Assembly: GCA_020249505.1 (NCBI GenBank) | Contig: JADCFN010000006.1 | Span: forward strand, 1-64,000 | DNA: 64,000 nt | Source: Roseomonas sp. | GTDB taxonomy: Bacteria; Pseudomonadota; Alphaproteobacteria; Acetobacterales; Acetobacteraceae | Direction: 5' to 3' | Shown here: positions 49,229 through 53,987 of the stretch, piece after piece | Numbering within the stretch: position 1 is the stretch's first letter | Layout: every line of letters begins with the position of its first letter | Program-made: the position numbers and the translations under genes | The notes under the pieces: generated by a model | The model's database searches: none | Told to the model about the DNA's origin: nothing | Seen by the model: the letters and a program-made list of their open reading frames with translations, nothing else

Positions 49229-49304
49229 GCCCAGATAGCTCAGTTGGTAGAGCATGCGACTGAAAATCGCAGTGTCGCTGGTTCGATTCCGGCTCTGGGC
49301 ACCA
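49229..49304 (+). tRNA. tRNA-Phe (GAA)
   Basis: A 76-base tRNA folds fully: acceptor stem GCCCAGA/TCTGGGC, D-arm stem GCTC/GAGC, anticodon stem TGCGA/TCGCA with loop CTGAAAA (anticodon GAA at 49262-49264, phenylalanine) and T-arm GCTGG/CCGGC around TTCGATT. The CCA end (49302-49304) is encoded and is directly followed by a run of six T, which may terminate the transcript. The gene lies alone between the ligase gene and glmM. Confidence 0.96.
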
Positions 49305-49441: not shown

Positions 49442-50809
49442 ATGAGTGAAGCAACCCCAACGCGCCGGCTTTTCGGCACTGATGGCATTCGCGGCAAGGC
49501 CAATGCCGCGCCCATGGATGCCGCAACCGCGCTGCGCCTTGGCCAGGCGGCGGGCAGCTTCTTCAATCGCGGCAATCACCGCCACCGTGTGGTGATCGGC
49601 AAGGATACGCGGCTTTCCGGCTATATGCTGGAACCGGCGCTGACCGCGGGCTTCATTGGCGCAGGCATGGACGTGGTGCTGGTCGGGCCCCTGCCCACGC
49701 CTGCCATTGCCTTGCTCACGCGGTCCTTGCGCGCGGATTTGGGCGTGATGATCAGCGCCTCTCACAATCCGTACGAAGACAATGGCATCAAGCTGTTTGG
49801 CCCGGATGGGCTGAAGCTGACGGATGATCAGGAAGCGGCAATCGAAGCCCTGATGGCGGGCGATCTTGGCGCCGCGCTGGTGCCGCCCGCTCGGCTTGGG
49901 CGCGCAAGCCGGCTGGAAGATGCGCCGGGGCGTTACATCGAAGCCGCCAAGGCGTCCTTCCCGCGCGGGCAGACGCTCGATGGGCTCCGTATTGTGGTGG
50001 ATTGCGCCCATGGCGCTGGTTATCGCGTTGCGCCCACCGTGCTGTGGGAATTGGGGGCCGAGGTGATCCCCATCGGCGTCGCCCCGGATGGCTTCAACAT
50101 TAACAAGGGGGTGGGTTCCACCGCGCCCGCCTCACTTGCGACTTTGGTGCAGGAACGCCGCGCTGATTTGGGCATTGCCCTGGATGGTGATGCCGATCGC
50201 CTGGTGCTGGTGGATGAGGCCGGGCAGGTGATTGATGGCGATCAGATATTGGCGCTGATTGCCCATTCCTGGCATGCGCAGCGCCGCCTGACCGGGGGCG
50301 CCGTGGTGGCGACCGTCATGTCCAATATGGGGCTGGAACGCTATCTGGCAGCACGCGGGCTTGGCTTGCTCCGCACCGCGGTTGGTGACCGCTATGTTGG
50401 CGAGAAAATGCGGGAGACCGGCTGCAATCTGGGCGGCGAGCAATCCGGCCATATGATCATGCCCGATTTCGGCACGACCGGAGATGGGCTGATCGCTGCC
50501 TTGCAAGTGCTCTCCGTGCTGGTGGAAGAAAAGCGCCCCGCGAGCGAGGTGCTGCGCTGCTTCACCCCCCTGCCGCAGCGGCTTGTGAATGTGCGCTATG
50601 CCGGCGCCTCGCCGCTGGTCAAGCCTGCCGTGGTCCAAGCCATCGCGGCCGAGGAAGCCGCGCTTGGCGCCCGCGGCCGTGTGCTGATCCGCGCGAGCGG
50701 CACTGAACCAGTGATTCGTGTGATGGCAGAAGCCGAGGAGGAGGCCCTGGTGGATGGCGTGGTCGGCCGTTTGGCTGAGCTGATCCGGGCCGAGGCGCGC
50801 GCCGCATGA
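49442..50809 (+). CDS. glmM: Phosphoglucosamine mutase
   Basis: A 455-residue phosphohexomutase that converts glucosamine-6-phosphate to glucosamine-1-phosphate for peptidoglycan and LPS precursors. The N-terminal [14 protein letters not shown], the phosphoserine loop [18 protein letters not shown] near residue 103, the metal loop [11 protein letters not shown] near 245 and the phosphate-binding [14 protein letters not shown] near 418 are typical. ATG 49442 is used; the frame remains open upstream into the tRNA gene, which cannot be coding. The stop overlaps the thiD start by ATGA. The 137-base gap after tRNA-Phe contains AT-rich DNA but no clear promoter. Confidence 0.96.
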
Positions 50810-51612
50810 AGGGGCGCGTGTTGATCATTGCCGGGTCTGATTCCGGCGGGGGGGCCGGCATTCAGGCCGATCTCAAGGCCGTGACCGCGCTGGGCGCCTT
50901 TGGCATGACAGCGATCACGGCGCTGACGGCGCAAAATACGCTTGGCGTGCATGGGGTTATGCCCGTGCCGCTCGACTTCCTCCGCCAACAGATCGCGGTA
51001 GTCCTGGATGATTTGGGCGCCGATGCGCTAAAGACCGGTATGCTGGCCGATAGCGCCACCATTGAGGTAGTGTGTGATGAAATCGCCGCCCGCGCGCCTG
51101 CCGTGCCTTTGGTGGCCGATCCGGTGATGGTGGCGAAAGGCGGCCACCCTCTGCTGGTGCCCGAAGCGGCCGAAACGCTGAAGCGCCGCCTGTTGCCGAT
51201 GGCTGCGGTGCTGACCCCCAATCTGCCGGAGGCGGAGGCGCTGTGCGGCTTTGCCATCCAAGATGTCGGCGCCATGCACCAGGCGGCCAAGGCGCTGCTG
51301 GCGCTTGGCCCCAAGGCGGTGCTGCTGAAGGGTGGGCATTTGCCAGGCGATGAGGTGGTGGATTTGCTCGCGACCGGCACGCGCATGGAAATCTTCCGCG
51401 ATCGGCGCATTCAAACCCGCCATACCCATGGCACGGGCTGCACCTTGGCGAGTGCGGTGGCGGCGGGCCTGGCGCAGGGGATGTCGCTCAGGGATTCCGT
51501 GATTCGTGCGCGCGCCTATGTGCGCGCGGCGATTGCGGCTGCGCCGGGTTATGGCGCCGGGCACGGGCCGCTTAACCACGCAGTGACCTGCGATTCTGGG
51601 GTTTTGCGCTGA
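50806..51612 (+). CDS. thiD: Hydroxymethylpyrimidine/phosphomethylpyrimidine kinase
   Basis: A 268-residue ribokinase-fold kinase of thiamine synthesis that phosphorylates HMP and HMP-phosphate. The N-terminal motif [20 protein letters not shown] is diagnostic; [14 protein letters not shown] contacts the pyrimidine, and the C-terminal [20 protein letters not shown] carries the anion hole and catalytic aspartate region (here the HGTGCTL motif). It overlaps glmM by 4 bases, so the two essential biosynthetic genes are co-translated although their pathways are unrelated. No thiamine riboswitch is visible upstream, as expected for the second gene of an operon. Confidence 0.95.
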
Positions 51613-51674: not shown

Positions 51675-53987
51675 ATGGCTATCAATATGAGTGCCACCCT
51701 CATAGCGGGTCTGTTTGGCCAACAAGGCCAGAACTCGCTGATACTTCCCTTCGGTAACGCTGCCCGTGCGGCCAGCGCCGGGGAAGCCGTTGTCGCCTTC
51801 CGCCGTGTCACCAAAGCGGGTGAGGAAGAAAAAGGCCTCGCGCGCGAAAAGAAAGACCCGGTCACGCTCACGGTTCTGGCGCAGTTTCGTCAGGCCTTGG
51901 ATGCGGCGCCGAATATCGACAAGGCGCTTTCTGATCCCCGCGTTTTGAAAGTGCTGATGCCCGCCCTTGGCCTGCCCGATCAGGTTGGCAATCCAGGCTT
52001 GGTGAAGCGCGCGCTTTTGTCCGATCCCAACGACAAGAAGGGTGTAGCCGCGCAGCTTGGCACCACCTGGAAGAACGCTGCCGCCACACTCAATCTGAAG
52101 GCGACCACAACCCCAAAGACAGTCGCCTTTGAAGGTCTGACCGATAAGGAAACCATGGCGGTTGCGGGACAATTGCGCCTGGGTGAGGCCGTACTGACCA
52201 CACCAACAAGCGGTCCGGCCACACCAAGGCCAAGGGGTTTTGACGGGCCGGAAGACAAGGTGACCACCGCGCTGATCGCGAAGCTTCGCGTTGGTGAGGA
52301 ATTGGTGCCCACGCGCGCGCAACGTGAAGTAGACCGAGTAGCCGTTCTGACCGCAGCGACGATACGTCAGGGGGAAGTGCCGGCCGGTGATCTGCCTGCG
52401 ATCGCCCAAAACACGCTCAAGCAAATGGCGGCTTTTCTGCGTGGCGGCAATTTTGATGCGGCGGTCGGCGCTGTTGATGATGGATTACTCGCGCTTGATG
52501 GCGCGAGCGGGCTGACCCCTGATCAATTGCGCGCCGGTCGGGTTGCGCTGATGGAAAGCGGCATCGGCATTGAACAGATGCGGCGTGATCCCTTTGCTGT
52601 GGCAAAGCGCGTTGAAGGCCTGATTGCCCTTGATTGGCCAAGCGGCGCTGCCTGGGCGCCCGCCTATAAGACGCGGCTTGATGCTTTCCATGATGAAGGT
52701 GTCAACAAGAATTCGAATTTTTCTTTGGAAATTGCCGCAGCCATGGCCAAGCGCATGGAAAACACGGCGACTTCTTCCCTCGAAATGGAGCTGGCGCAAT
52801 CCTATTTCAAAAAATCCAATGATGTCCTGAATACCCGGGACGGCAAGCCTACCAAGGCACCGATTGATGGCGTGCCGGCCACACGCATCGCGCAGACCGA
52901 AGCAACCAAGATTCTGGATGGTATGAAGAATGCCGCACCGCCCGATCTTTCGCGCGCAAGGATTGAGGTTGGTTACGCTGCCGGCGCGGCGCTCAGCGCC
53001 ATCAAGCTTGCCGAAACGCCAGTTTTTGGGATGCCGACGCTGGCGAGCCAGGCCTTGCGCGAAATGGCCAAGCTGATTCGCGCGGGTTCTTATGTTTCTG
53101 CTGTGCAACGTGCTGATGACGCCTTGACTGCGCTGACCAACGATACGGGCTTGCCTGCATCCATGAAGCGCACCGGCAGCGCCGCACTGCTTGAAACCAG
53201 CGCTTTGGTCGAACAGGTGCGCCGCAATGCCCCGGGCGTCGCCGAACGGCTTGATAAACTGGCGGCACTTGATACGCCTTCAGGCGCTGTTCGGTCCCGT
53301 GATTTCCAAATGAGGCTTGAGAGTTTCCATAACGACGGCATCAGCAAGAACGTGAATTTCGCGCTCGAAATCTCGGCTGCCATGGCGGAGCGTATGCAGT
53401 CCCAGGCGACAACCTTGGATGAAACCCTGCAGGCGCAATCATTGATGAACCGGTCACGCCAGGTATTGAATGGGCGCGACGGCAAGCCGCTTTCAACTCT
53501 CGCCAGCAGCCAGCAATCGCGCATCCTTCCTTCTGATGCCGGGAAGATCGTAGATTCGATGAAGGCAGGCCTTCGCCTTGGCAGCCTTTCTGACCCGAAA
53601 ACGATCGAAGTCCTCACCAATGGCTTTACAAAATACGAGTATCGCACCGGGCTGAGTGACGCCAATCCGGGCATGGCCAATGCCATTTACTTCATTGAAA
53701 ATGCGAAGACCGTAAAGAATGTCTACGATATTCTCGGCAATGGTCCCATGCGGCGGGTGGTACTCGGCGCCTTGGGGCTGCCGGATCAGATTGCGATCCA
53801 GCCGGTTGAAACACAGGCGCGTGCGGTCACATCCCGGCTCAAGATCGCTGATCTGCAGGATGCGGCCAAAGTGCGTGGCATTGCCGAGCGTTACCTGATG
53901 GCCCAAGCCGATAAGGCGGCCGCGACGGCGGGCAATGCTTCGAATGATCCCTTCGGCACCATATCTAGTCTCTCGATCAAGGTCTGA
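51675..53987 (+). CDS. DUF1217 protein interrupted by a duplicated helical module
   Basis: A 770-residue protein. Residues 66-140 match the first part of DUF1217 (NIDKALSDPRVLKVLMPALG, then WKNAAATLNL), a domain of unknown function found in flagellum-associated proteins of alphaproteobacteria. The second part, KYEYRTGLSDANPGMANAIY onward to KVRGIAERYLM, is at residues 653-742. Between them is an insertion of about 500 residues containing two copies of a module: residues 222-420 and 435-632, in register at 213 residues (for example LDAFHDEGVNKNSNF and LESFHNDGISKNVNF). No signal peptide and no membrane segment are visible, so it may be secreted by the flagellar or a similar apparatus. No flagellar gene is nearby. 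The ATG lacks a strong ribosome site. Confidence 0.8.
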   Translation: MAINMSATLIAGLFGQQGQNSLILPFGNAARAASAGEAVVAFRRVTKAGEEEKGLAREKKDPVTLTVLAQFRQALDAAPNIDKALSDPRVLKVLMPALGLPDQVGNPGLVKRALLSDPNDKKGVAAQLGTTWKNAAATLNLKATTTPKTVAFEGLTDKETMAVAGQLRLGEAVLTTPTSGPATPRPRGFDGPEDKVTTALIAKLRVGEELVPTRAQREVDRVAVLTAATIRQGEVPAGDLPAIAQNTLKQMAAFLRGGNFDAAVGAVDDGLLALDGASGLTPDQLRAGRVALMESGIGIEQMRRDPFAVAKRVEGLIALDWPSGAAWAPAYKTRLDAFHDEGVNKNSNFSLEIAAAMAKRMENTATSSLEMELAQSYFKKSNDVLNTRDGKPTKAPIDGVPATRIAQTEATKILDGMKNAAPPDLSRARIEVGYAAGAALSAIKLAETPVFGMPTLASQALREMAKLIRAGSYVSAVQRADDALTALTNDTGLPASMKRTGSAALLETSALVEQVRRNAPGVAERLDKLAALDTPSGAVRSRDFQMRLESFHNDGISKNVNFALEISAAMAERMQSQATTLDETLQAQSLMNRSRQVLNGRDGKPLSTLASSQQSRILPSDAGKIVDSMKAGLRLGSLSDPKTIEVLTNGFTKYEYRTGLSDANPGMANAIYFIENAKTVKNVYDILGNGPMRRVVLGALGLPDQIAIQPVETQARAVTSRLKIADLQDAAKVRGIAERYLMAQADKAAATAGNASNDPFGTISSLSIKV
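52338..52934 (+). repeat. First copy of the 213-residue module inside the DUF1217 protein
   Basis: This segment encodes residues 222-420 of the DUF1217 protein. Its conserved positions recur exactly 213 residues later: LKQMAAFLRGGNF against LREMAKLIRAGSY, and FSLEIAAAMAKRM against FALEISAAMAERM. The copies are diverged at the DNA level, so the duplication is old. Confidence 0.85.
52977..53570 (+). repeat. Second copy of the 213-residue module inside the DUF1217 protein
   Basis: This segment encodes residues 435-632. It matches the first copy residue by residue through VLNGRDGKP (VLNTRDGKP in copy one) and KIVDSMK (KILDGMK), with a one-residue shift near the end. The second DUF1217 half resumes about 20 residues later. 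Confidence 0.85.

Follow-up and report, generated by a model that had tools for sequence, protein, structure and literature searches.

A DUF1217 protein expanded by a duplicated helical module in Acetobacteraceae, and a possible late role of its family in flagellar assembly

Introduction

Whether a protein that carries a large insert within its family domain, and whose gene stands apart from flagellar genes, still serves the flagellum is the question raised by a gene at positions 51675..53987 (forward strand) of a 64,000-bp stretch of Roseomonas sp. contig JADCFN010000006.1 (assembly GCA_020249505.1), referred to here as the window. The gene encodes a DUF1217 protein of 770 amino acids with a duplicated helical insert. 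A sequence-only reading had suggested that the expansion produced a filament-, cap- or secretion-related protein with a new function. We find instead that this flagellated freshwater bacterium, a relative of genomes labelled Roseomonas (Acetobacteraceae), has one DUF1217 orthologue only, encoded by this gene, and that DUF1217 is associated with flagella. Proteins of this family would act late in flagellar assembly, most likely as a cap, cap-like or junction factor in flagella without FliD, a reading to which we assign a probability of about one half.

Results

The open reading frame (ORF) opens with ATG and matches the DUF1217 family (PF06748) in two stretches (E 8.6e-25, 88.1 bits against a Pfam cut-off of 22.9). 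In the genome search, profile positions 1-55 fall at 51963-52124 and positions 56-149 at 53592-53873, in one frame and in the correct order, with about 490 residues splitting the profile; the first part alone scores 21.1 bits, under the cut-off. The sole other Pfam row at E ≤10 is TAL_effector (12 bits, under its cut-off of 28), the FliD_N and FliD_C domains of FliD are absent from the window protein at that threshold, and NCBIfam gives no match. Sequence searches of the PDB with two alignments, A1 (described below) and A3, single out 2o8s alone. Proteins of the 2o8s type share with the window protein both profile parts in order, the fold of the C-terminal half and the co-occurrence with flagella, whereas the ~490 extra residues between the halves, comprising two helical modules and a linker, set the window protein apart from a typical DUF1217 protein.

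Comparison with uninserted orthologues bounds the insert at about residues 142-632. These bounds slightly correct the sequence-only reading, as does a tandem repeat of 37 residues that precedes the modules. The N-terminal half (residues 1-141, 51675..52097) holds profile positions 1-55. It is followed by a linker (residues 142-212, 52098..52310) in which a 37-residue unit occurs twice in tandem (offset 37, residues 119-176, score 69 against a shuffle maximum of 53), module M1 (residues 213-398, 52311..52868), a spacer with an R-I...MK segment and low predicted local distance difference test (pLDDT) values (residues 399-425, 52869..52949), module M2 (residues 426-611, 52950..53507), a second spacer (residues 612-632, 53508..53570) and the C-terminal half (residues 633-770, 53571..53984), all on the forward strand and both spacers delimited by the alignment.

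The two modules are in register at 213 residues, as had been claimed: the strongest ungapped self-match of the protein has this offset (residues 213-392) and a score of 360, where 200 shuffles averaged 38.4 and reached 53 at most. At offset 213, 78 of 215 positions are identical, while other offsets from 208 to 218 give only 9-23, and profile comparison of M1 with M2 returns a probability of 100 (E 5e-42, 41% identity, 202 columns). The DUF1217 halves are themselves weakly alike (offset 602, score 50, a level that shuffled sequences also reach; profile comparison E 3e-5, 27 columns). In the full-protein model eight helices are predicted in M1 (residues 212-388) and eight in M2 (residues 426-600). 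The insert appears to resemble solenoids of the tetratricopeptide repeat (TPR) type, the module fold being that of the full-protein model; Pfam finds no TPR family at E ≤1 in the insert (window:52122-53590), Foldseek of the whole protein against the PDB yields no match at E ≤0.001, and a sequence search of the PDB with the module alignment yields no convincing one.

The insert is shared among close relatives. A scan of named genomes recovers 15 loci in assemblies labelled Roseomonas, Asaia, Alphaproteobacteria or Rhodospirillales; 13 span the whole protein and two are contig-end fragments. Alignment A1 combines the window protein with 12 of the 13 full-length loci, which are 73-80% identical to it; the remaining locus, L009, is excluded for an in-frame stop. 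These loci overlap with our second sample, 35 genomes of the genus, and the two sets are not independent. The A1 search matches all 35 genomes. Fifteen carry the two-module gene (including G215, with an in-frame stop), two of them, G219 and G220, with a second tandem copy; a single genome, G228, carries a one-module gene of 520 amino acids, without one of the two 37-residue linker repeats. The gene is uninserted in 16, where the regions corresponding to window residues ~26-144 and 635-769 nearly abut. Among the rest, G202 has contig-end fragments only, G214 only a remnant, and G221 no DUF1217 match at all, its A1 match being another protein that aligns to residues 188-374. G230 has an uninserted DUF1217 gene and a second protein matching the module stretch. 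The insert is thus confined, in our sample, to one clade of one genus and is not a constant part of the family, and the search for proteins with the same insertion that the sequence-only reading called for finds them in the genus, with glmM and thiD upstream.

Further copies were seen in several loci. At L004:10438-12744 and L005:10438-12744 a second, diverged DUF1217 gene lies directly behind the first, its product containing the same two modules and sharing 59% identity with the window protein, and a second copy cut by the contig end is found behind the first at L015:9370-9576. The remnant of G214 (L103:7938-8648) and the stop-bearing copy of G215 (L009:8001-10316) both sit in genomes with no FlhA match; the two copies represent gene decay alongside the loss of the flagellum. 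A pseudogene or assembly artefact as the source of the two-module gene itself is ruled out by the 14 genomes of the genus in which it is free of stops, together with its low ratio of non-synonymous to synonymous substitution rates (dN/dS).

A tree of the flanking halves has 29 rows, made up of 16 two-module genes from 14 genomes, the gene with one module and 12 of the 16 genes without an insert. It groups the inserted genes in a single clade (100/100), which supports a single insertion event within the genus. Synteny searches with tblastn find glmM and thiD directly upstream of the gene in 13 of 13 named two-module loci, four more inserted loci and the G214 remnant. At seven of eight uninserted loci thiD adjoins the gene, five of them with glmM too, and the insertion therefore took place in situ; the eighth, L094 (G213), has neither within its 3.4 kb. 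The insertion arose in the ancestor of one clade of the genus, and the claim that DUF1217 was expanded by an insertion with internal duplication is borne out. An order from one module to two is plausible and not proven, because G228 is placed with the two-module paralogues in the flank tree (94/86). Loss of a module from G228 by recombination between M1 and M2 is not favoured: its 29 diagnostic columns mix M1-like and M2-like states (5 and 3 of 14 in the first half, 7 and 4 of 15 in the second) with no clear breakpoint.

The insert is kept by purifying selection, at a constraint below that of the flanking halves. Median dN/dS over 66 pairs of 12 genes is lowest, and constraint thus strongest, in the DUF1217 halves (0.094 and 0.086), against 0.197 for M1, 0.133 for M2, 0.153 for the linker, and 0.113 and 0.288 for the short spacers.

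The module also occurs outside DUF1217. Its alignment matches six of 200 genomes of the family, the window's own included, and separate one-module proteins are found in G221, G230 and five further family genomes. The module of these proteins is common to the window protein, which differs in having two modules, no TPR match and a position within DUF1217. TPR repeats follow the module in G221 and G137 according to Pfam, and in G124 and G014 by eye only; the G230 and G018 proteins have no Pfam TPR match. M1 is 45% identical to the G124 protein over 176 residues (E 4e-39), and is homologous to the region preceding the TPR repeats elsewhere. The G156 match is weak (E 1.8e-5), cut by a contig end and not part of the module tree, which has 39 rows and separates every DUF1217 module from those of the separate proteins (100/100). 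In it M1 copies group together (90/94), as do M2 copies (100/100); the lone module of G228 attaches to M2 with weak support (90/43), close to the base.

The separate proteins at L111, L110, L098, L099, L112 and L113 have in common an unnamed region of about 190 residues. Pfam, run on L098, L099, L111 and L112, gives it no match over cut-off, and a GDIVGGDK motif lies near the start of the G137 and G230 proteins. Flagellar genes are absent near the module-bearing separate proteins in eight loci, five of which are just 2-3.6 kb long. Derivation of the module from a TPR protein adjoining flagellin in Roseomonas marmotae was considered and rejected, as there is no match between them. Known defence proteins were likewise rejected as relatives: PADLOC gives weak matches only, and DUF4062 in G156 is under its cut-off.

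Insertion into DUF1217 is not peculiar to the window protein. We counted as insert-bearing those genes whose profile is split near positions 43-65 within a long frame, or in which DUF1217 is doubled (G061); the partial matches G093 and G103 are excluded, and inserts too small to split the profile are missed by this count. By this measure 17 of 158 DUF1217-bearing genomes in the 200-genome family sample, from 11 genera, carry an insert-type gene; the whole sequence was read for 14 of them, G085 and G162 in part, and G192 not. The other insert-bearing proteins of the Acetobacteraceae are interrupted near the same profile positions as the window protein, and several of their inserts are tandemly repeated, yet the inserts differ from the window module: in the module search over the 200 genomes, the sole insert-bearing DUF1217 gene that matches is the window's own. 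FlgE_D2, which belongs to the exposed portion of the hook protein, lies between the DUF1217 halves in G042, G149 and G174. The G042 gene (L143:1195-4302) is a frame of 1036 residues with five FlgE_D2 stretches; one FlgE_D2-insert stretch, compared with the PDB, has no match. In G195 (L149:1427-2842) eight ALTTAQ-repeat stretches (PF20080) occupy the site. Repeats above the best of 40 shuffles and with no Pfam match over cut-off are found in G143 (95 residues) and in G071, G056, G181, G086, G132 and G128 (77-79 residues), and a shorter insert without a name interrupts G107 and G162. Judged by eye, the insert of G107, shared by R. marmotae, is present as a single unit (L059:9410-10579, L158:9281-10453), and G143 has about three copies of a similar unit, some 95 residues long (L058:6324-8252). 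Among the types seen here, only that of the window protein has as its exchanged domain a helical module that TPR proteins also carry.

As the sequence-only reading had noticed, flagellar genes are not found near the window gene: 25 queries (22 flagellar, 3 DUF1217) matched the DUF1217 gene alone in the window and nothing in the 19.9 kb that follow it, the search ending 28 kb short of the end of the 112-kb contig. That reading took the isolated position as a sign that the expanded protein had left the flagellum and gained a new function. The uninserted loci L053, L054 and L106 (19 kb each) are equally without a flagellar match; the isolation is common to uninserted relatives, and is therefore no sign of a new role. 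The thiD neighbour shared with uninserted loci, the two broken copies in genomes without FlhA and the strong constraint on both halves also speak against such a departure, as does the window's own genome, where FlhA is encoded on contig 72 and flagellin-N is matched six times (five over cut-off), alongside this one DUF1217 gene. We regard a new function away from the flagellum as very unlikely, although the guess of a filament- or cap-related part, made in the same place, agrees with our findings. FliD_N was not found in the own genome. Its flagellin-type matches lie on three contigs (L116-L120, contigs 21, 59 and 93), and one flagellin pair is followed by FlbT and FlaF, with no DUF1217 in the stretch covered.

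Among the 200 family genomes, DUF1217 is present in 158 and FlhA in 162: both in 148, DUF1217 only in 10, FlhA only in 14, and neither in 28 (Fisher p 8.9e-16, uncorrected for kinship). The two genes are at most 35 kb apart in 41 of 46 genomes, picked by eye, that have both on one contig, and lie on separate contigs in many other family genomes. Within the genus FlhA is present in 32 of 35 genomes and missing in G214, G215 and G210. G221 was rejected as an example of a flagellated genome without DUF1217: thiD was also not found in it (36% partial match only), and the region may be missing from the assembly. We take SMc03023 of S. meliloti to be a DUF1217 gene. One study lists SMc03023 among up-regulated motility-related genes of unknown function (PMC2848241).

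In three other families DUF1217 stands directly or closely behind the genes for flagellin, FlaF and FlbT. Annotated plasmids of R. marmotae, Roseivivax marinus and two Cereibacter sphaeroides strains have the order flagellin-flaF-flbT-DUF1217, and an Azospirillum argentinense plasmid has flagellin-flaF-flbT-hypothetical-DUF1217; in an unannotated stretch of Indioceanicola, tblastn places flagellin and FlaF ahead of DUF1217. Of the 30 best-scoring family loci, examined with flanks of at most 1.5 kb, 20 have flagellin, FlaF or FlbT, two others FliI, and eight no flagellar query.

DUF1217 and FliD (HAP2) rarely occur in one genome. FliD_N is found in five of the 200 family genomes (G053, G068, G140, G179, G187), all FlhA-positive and DUF1217-negative (Fisher p 2.3e-6 for exclusion among the 162 FlhA-positive genomes). 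Of 289 genomes of the class, 31 have DUF1217, 57 FliD and two (G352, G440) both; counted by family, the numbers are 22, 43 and 2. The one-sided p of 0.033 is taken over all 289, flagellated or not, and would be smaller in flagellated ones alone. Six loci around FliD contain flagellin in five cases and no match for FlaF, FlbT or DUF1217; in two of them Pfam shows fliD followed by fliS. FliD has conserved ends flanking a variable centre. DUF1217 may tentatively be proposed to cap the filament in Alphaproteobacteria that have no FliD, as an unrelated protein accompanied by flaF and flbT in place of fliD and fliS; the cap role it would share with FliD is a proposal. Rhizobiaceae are reported to be without FliD (PMC6913195). 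For Azospirillum brasilense, PMC12826043 describes FliD and FliS with fliC2 of the polar flagellum and a lateral flagellin of ~45 kDa. The flagellin in the DUF1217 cluster of the A. argentinense plasmid has 414 residues, so that in Azospirillum DUF1217 probably belongs to the lateral flagellum and FliD to the polar one.

Discussion

Published mutants bear on the proposed role through a protein named CP1. PMC12363192 describes CP1 (PGA1_c23640) as required for motility in Phaeobacter inhibens, along with three further conserved proteins, and reports a fliC-flaF-flbT-CP1 cluster on a plasmid of C. sphaeroides. The gene in the CP1 place on two C. sphaeroides plasmids is DUF1217; the two thus share a place after flagellin-flaF-flbT in C. 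sphaeroides, and CP1 is needed for filaments in P. inhibens. CP1 mutants are described there as immotile, with no flagella by electron microscopy and an undefined polar structure in some cells, while FliC and most late proteins are still released; complementation restores motility, and FliD is stated to be absent from P. inhibens (PMC12363192). The main text of that paper does not call CP1 DUF1217 and has no word starting with 'DUF'. Free flagellin without filaments resembles the loss of a cap or junction protein.

Several observations weigh against a late role at the filament. CP1 is equated with DUF1217 by gene position, not by the CP1 sequence. CP1 itself was not found in the P. inhibens exoproteome (PMC12363192), so that a secreted cap is possible only if scarce, and the same paper places CP1-4 nowhere outside Rhodobacterales. 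A near-saturating transposon screen of Agrobacterium fabrum yielded 37 motility proteins, comprising known parts and four genes of unknown function, none described there as DUF1217 (PMC9812332). Agrobacterium does have a DUF1217 protein (2o8s, AGR_C_984); its gene was either missed, not needed there, or reported under another name. On account of this screen we rate the cap, and the late role in general, lower, and their rivals slightly higher, than we otherwise would. The five FliD-bearing family genomes represent two genera with a different filament gene set, and the exclusion may therefore reflect replacement of the whole system; two class genomes, moreover, carry FliD and DUF1217 together. 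Nine FlhA-positive family genomes have neither protein, and a Caulobacter control matches neither, from which it follows that a DUF1217 cap would not be universal. G210 has an intact DUF1217 gene and no FlhA match (in an assembly of 770 contigs). The structure prediction suggested by the sequence-only reading recovers the DUF1217 fold for the C-terminal half alone, the N-terminal half having no confident model. In Brucella the order is given as motA-DUF1217-flgF-fliI, not beside flagellin (PMC7410920). In the open-licence library searched, two papers mention DUF1217; none that we saw names it as a cap, and none treats AGR-C-984p, or flagella together with ALTTAQ repeats.

The absence of CP1 outside the cell would also be expected of a cytoplasmic protein. 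DUF1217 could be an export chaperone or an assembly-control factor for flagellin or junction proteins, with the insert as a second cargo-binding surface, as is often the case for TPR domains; the apparent likeness of the predicted insert fold to TPR-type solenoids fits this, as does the location of the gene next to flaF and flbT, whose products act on the production of flagellin. The authors of the CP1 study themselves suggest a chaperone or the prevention of premature assembly (PMC12363192). The release of FliC and most late proteins by the mutant, however, means that export is not blocked, and FlgE_D2 domains, part of an exposed hook region, sit at the insertion site of some DUF1217 proteins. 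We consider a chaperone possible but doubtful.

DUF1217 could also be a hook-filament junction protein, or act at an earlier rod or hook stage; the loss of a junction protein would likewise leave free flagellin without filaments. The Brucella gene, listed by flgF and fliI, points in this direction, and so does fliI beside DUF1217 in the two family loci noted above and in R. marmotae. In R. marmotae, however, a rod-binding protein and FlgD are annotated nearby, and the Roseivivax stretch includes a rod-binding protein, FlgK and another flagellin-type gene; caps and junction proteins of other kinds thus have their own annotated genes near DUF1217, while FliD is not annotated in either stretch. 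A role at the junction or earlier, rather than as filament cap, seems unlikely to us.

If DUF1217 does act late in assembly, its place would be where flagellin joins the growing filament. Docking on the filament would fall to the conserved halves, with the insert as an outward-facing, exchangeable domain comparable to the variable central domains known in flagellin, the hook protein and FliD. The tentative cap proposal includes, with the same reserve, an outer domain that has been repeatedly exchanged by the insertion of new, often tandemly repeated domains at one site. In the window protein, a helical module related to the pre-TPR region of other proteins came to be placed in frame between the halves with a short linker, and the resulting putative outer domain, a predicted alpha-helical solenoid, probably binds something, putatively flagellin, another filament part or a surface.

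To our knowledge, there is no accepted answer to what caps the filaments of Rhizobiaceae and P. inhibens. The cap question can be tested directly, since the family has a solved structure (2o8s), overlaps little with FliD and, provided that CP1 is DUF1217, includes a protein whose mutants make no filaments. The insertion site offers a natural series—hook domains, ALTTAQ repeats, helical modules—that can help to show which side of the protein points outward.

Other features of the locus

The conserved upstream neighbours glmM and thiD occupy 49445..51612 on the forward strand of the window, their names being a reading of the sequences. Upstream of glmM lies a tRNA-Phe gene (window 49229-49304). 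A TTG-started ORF at 49244 runs through it, and the TTG is unlikely to be a real start, since the ORF reads through the tRNA gene.

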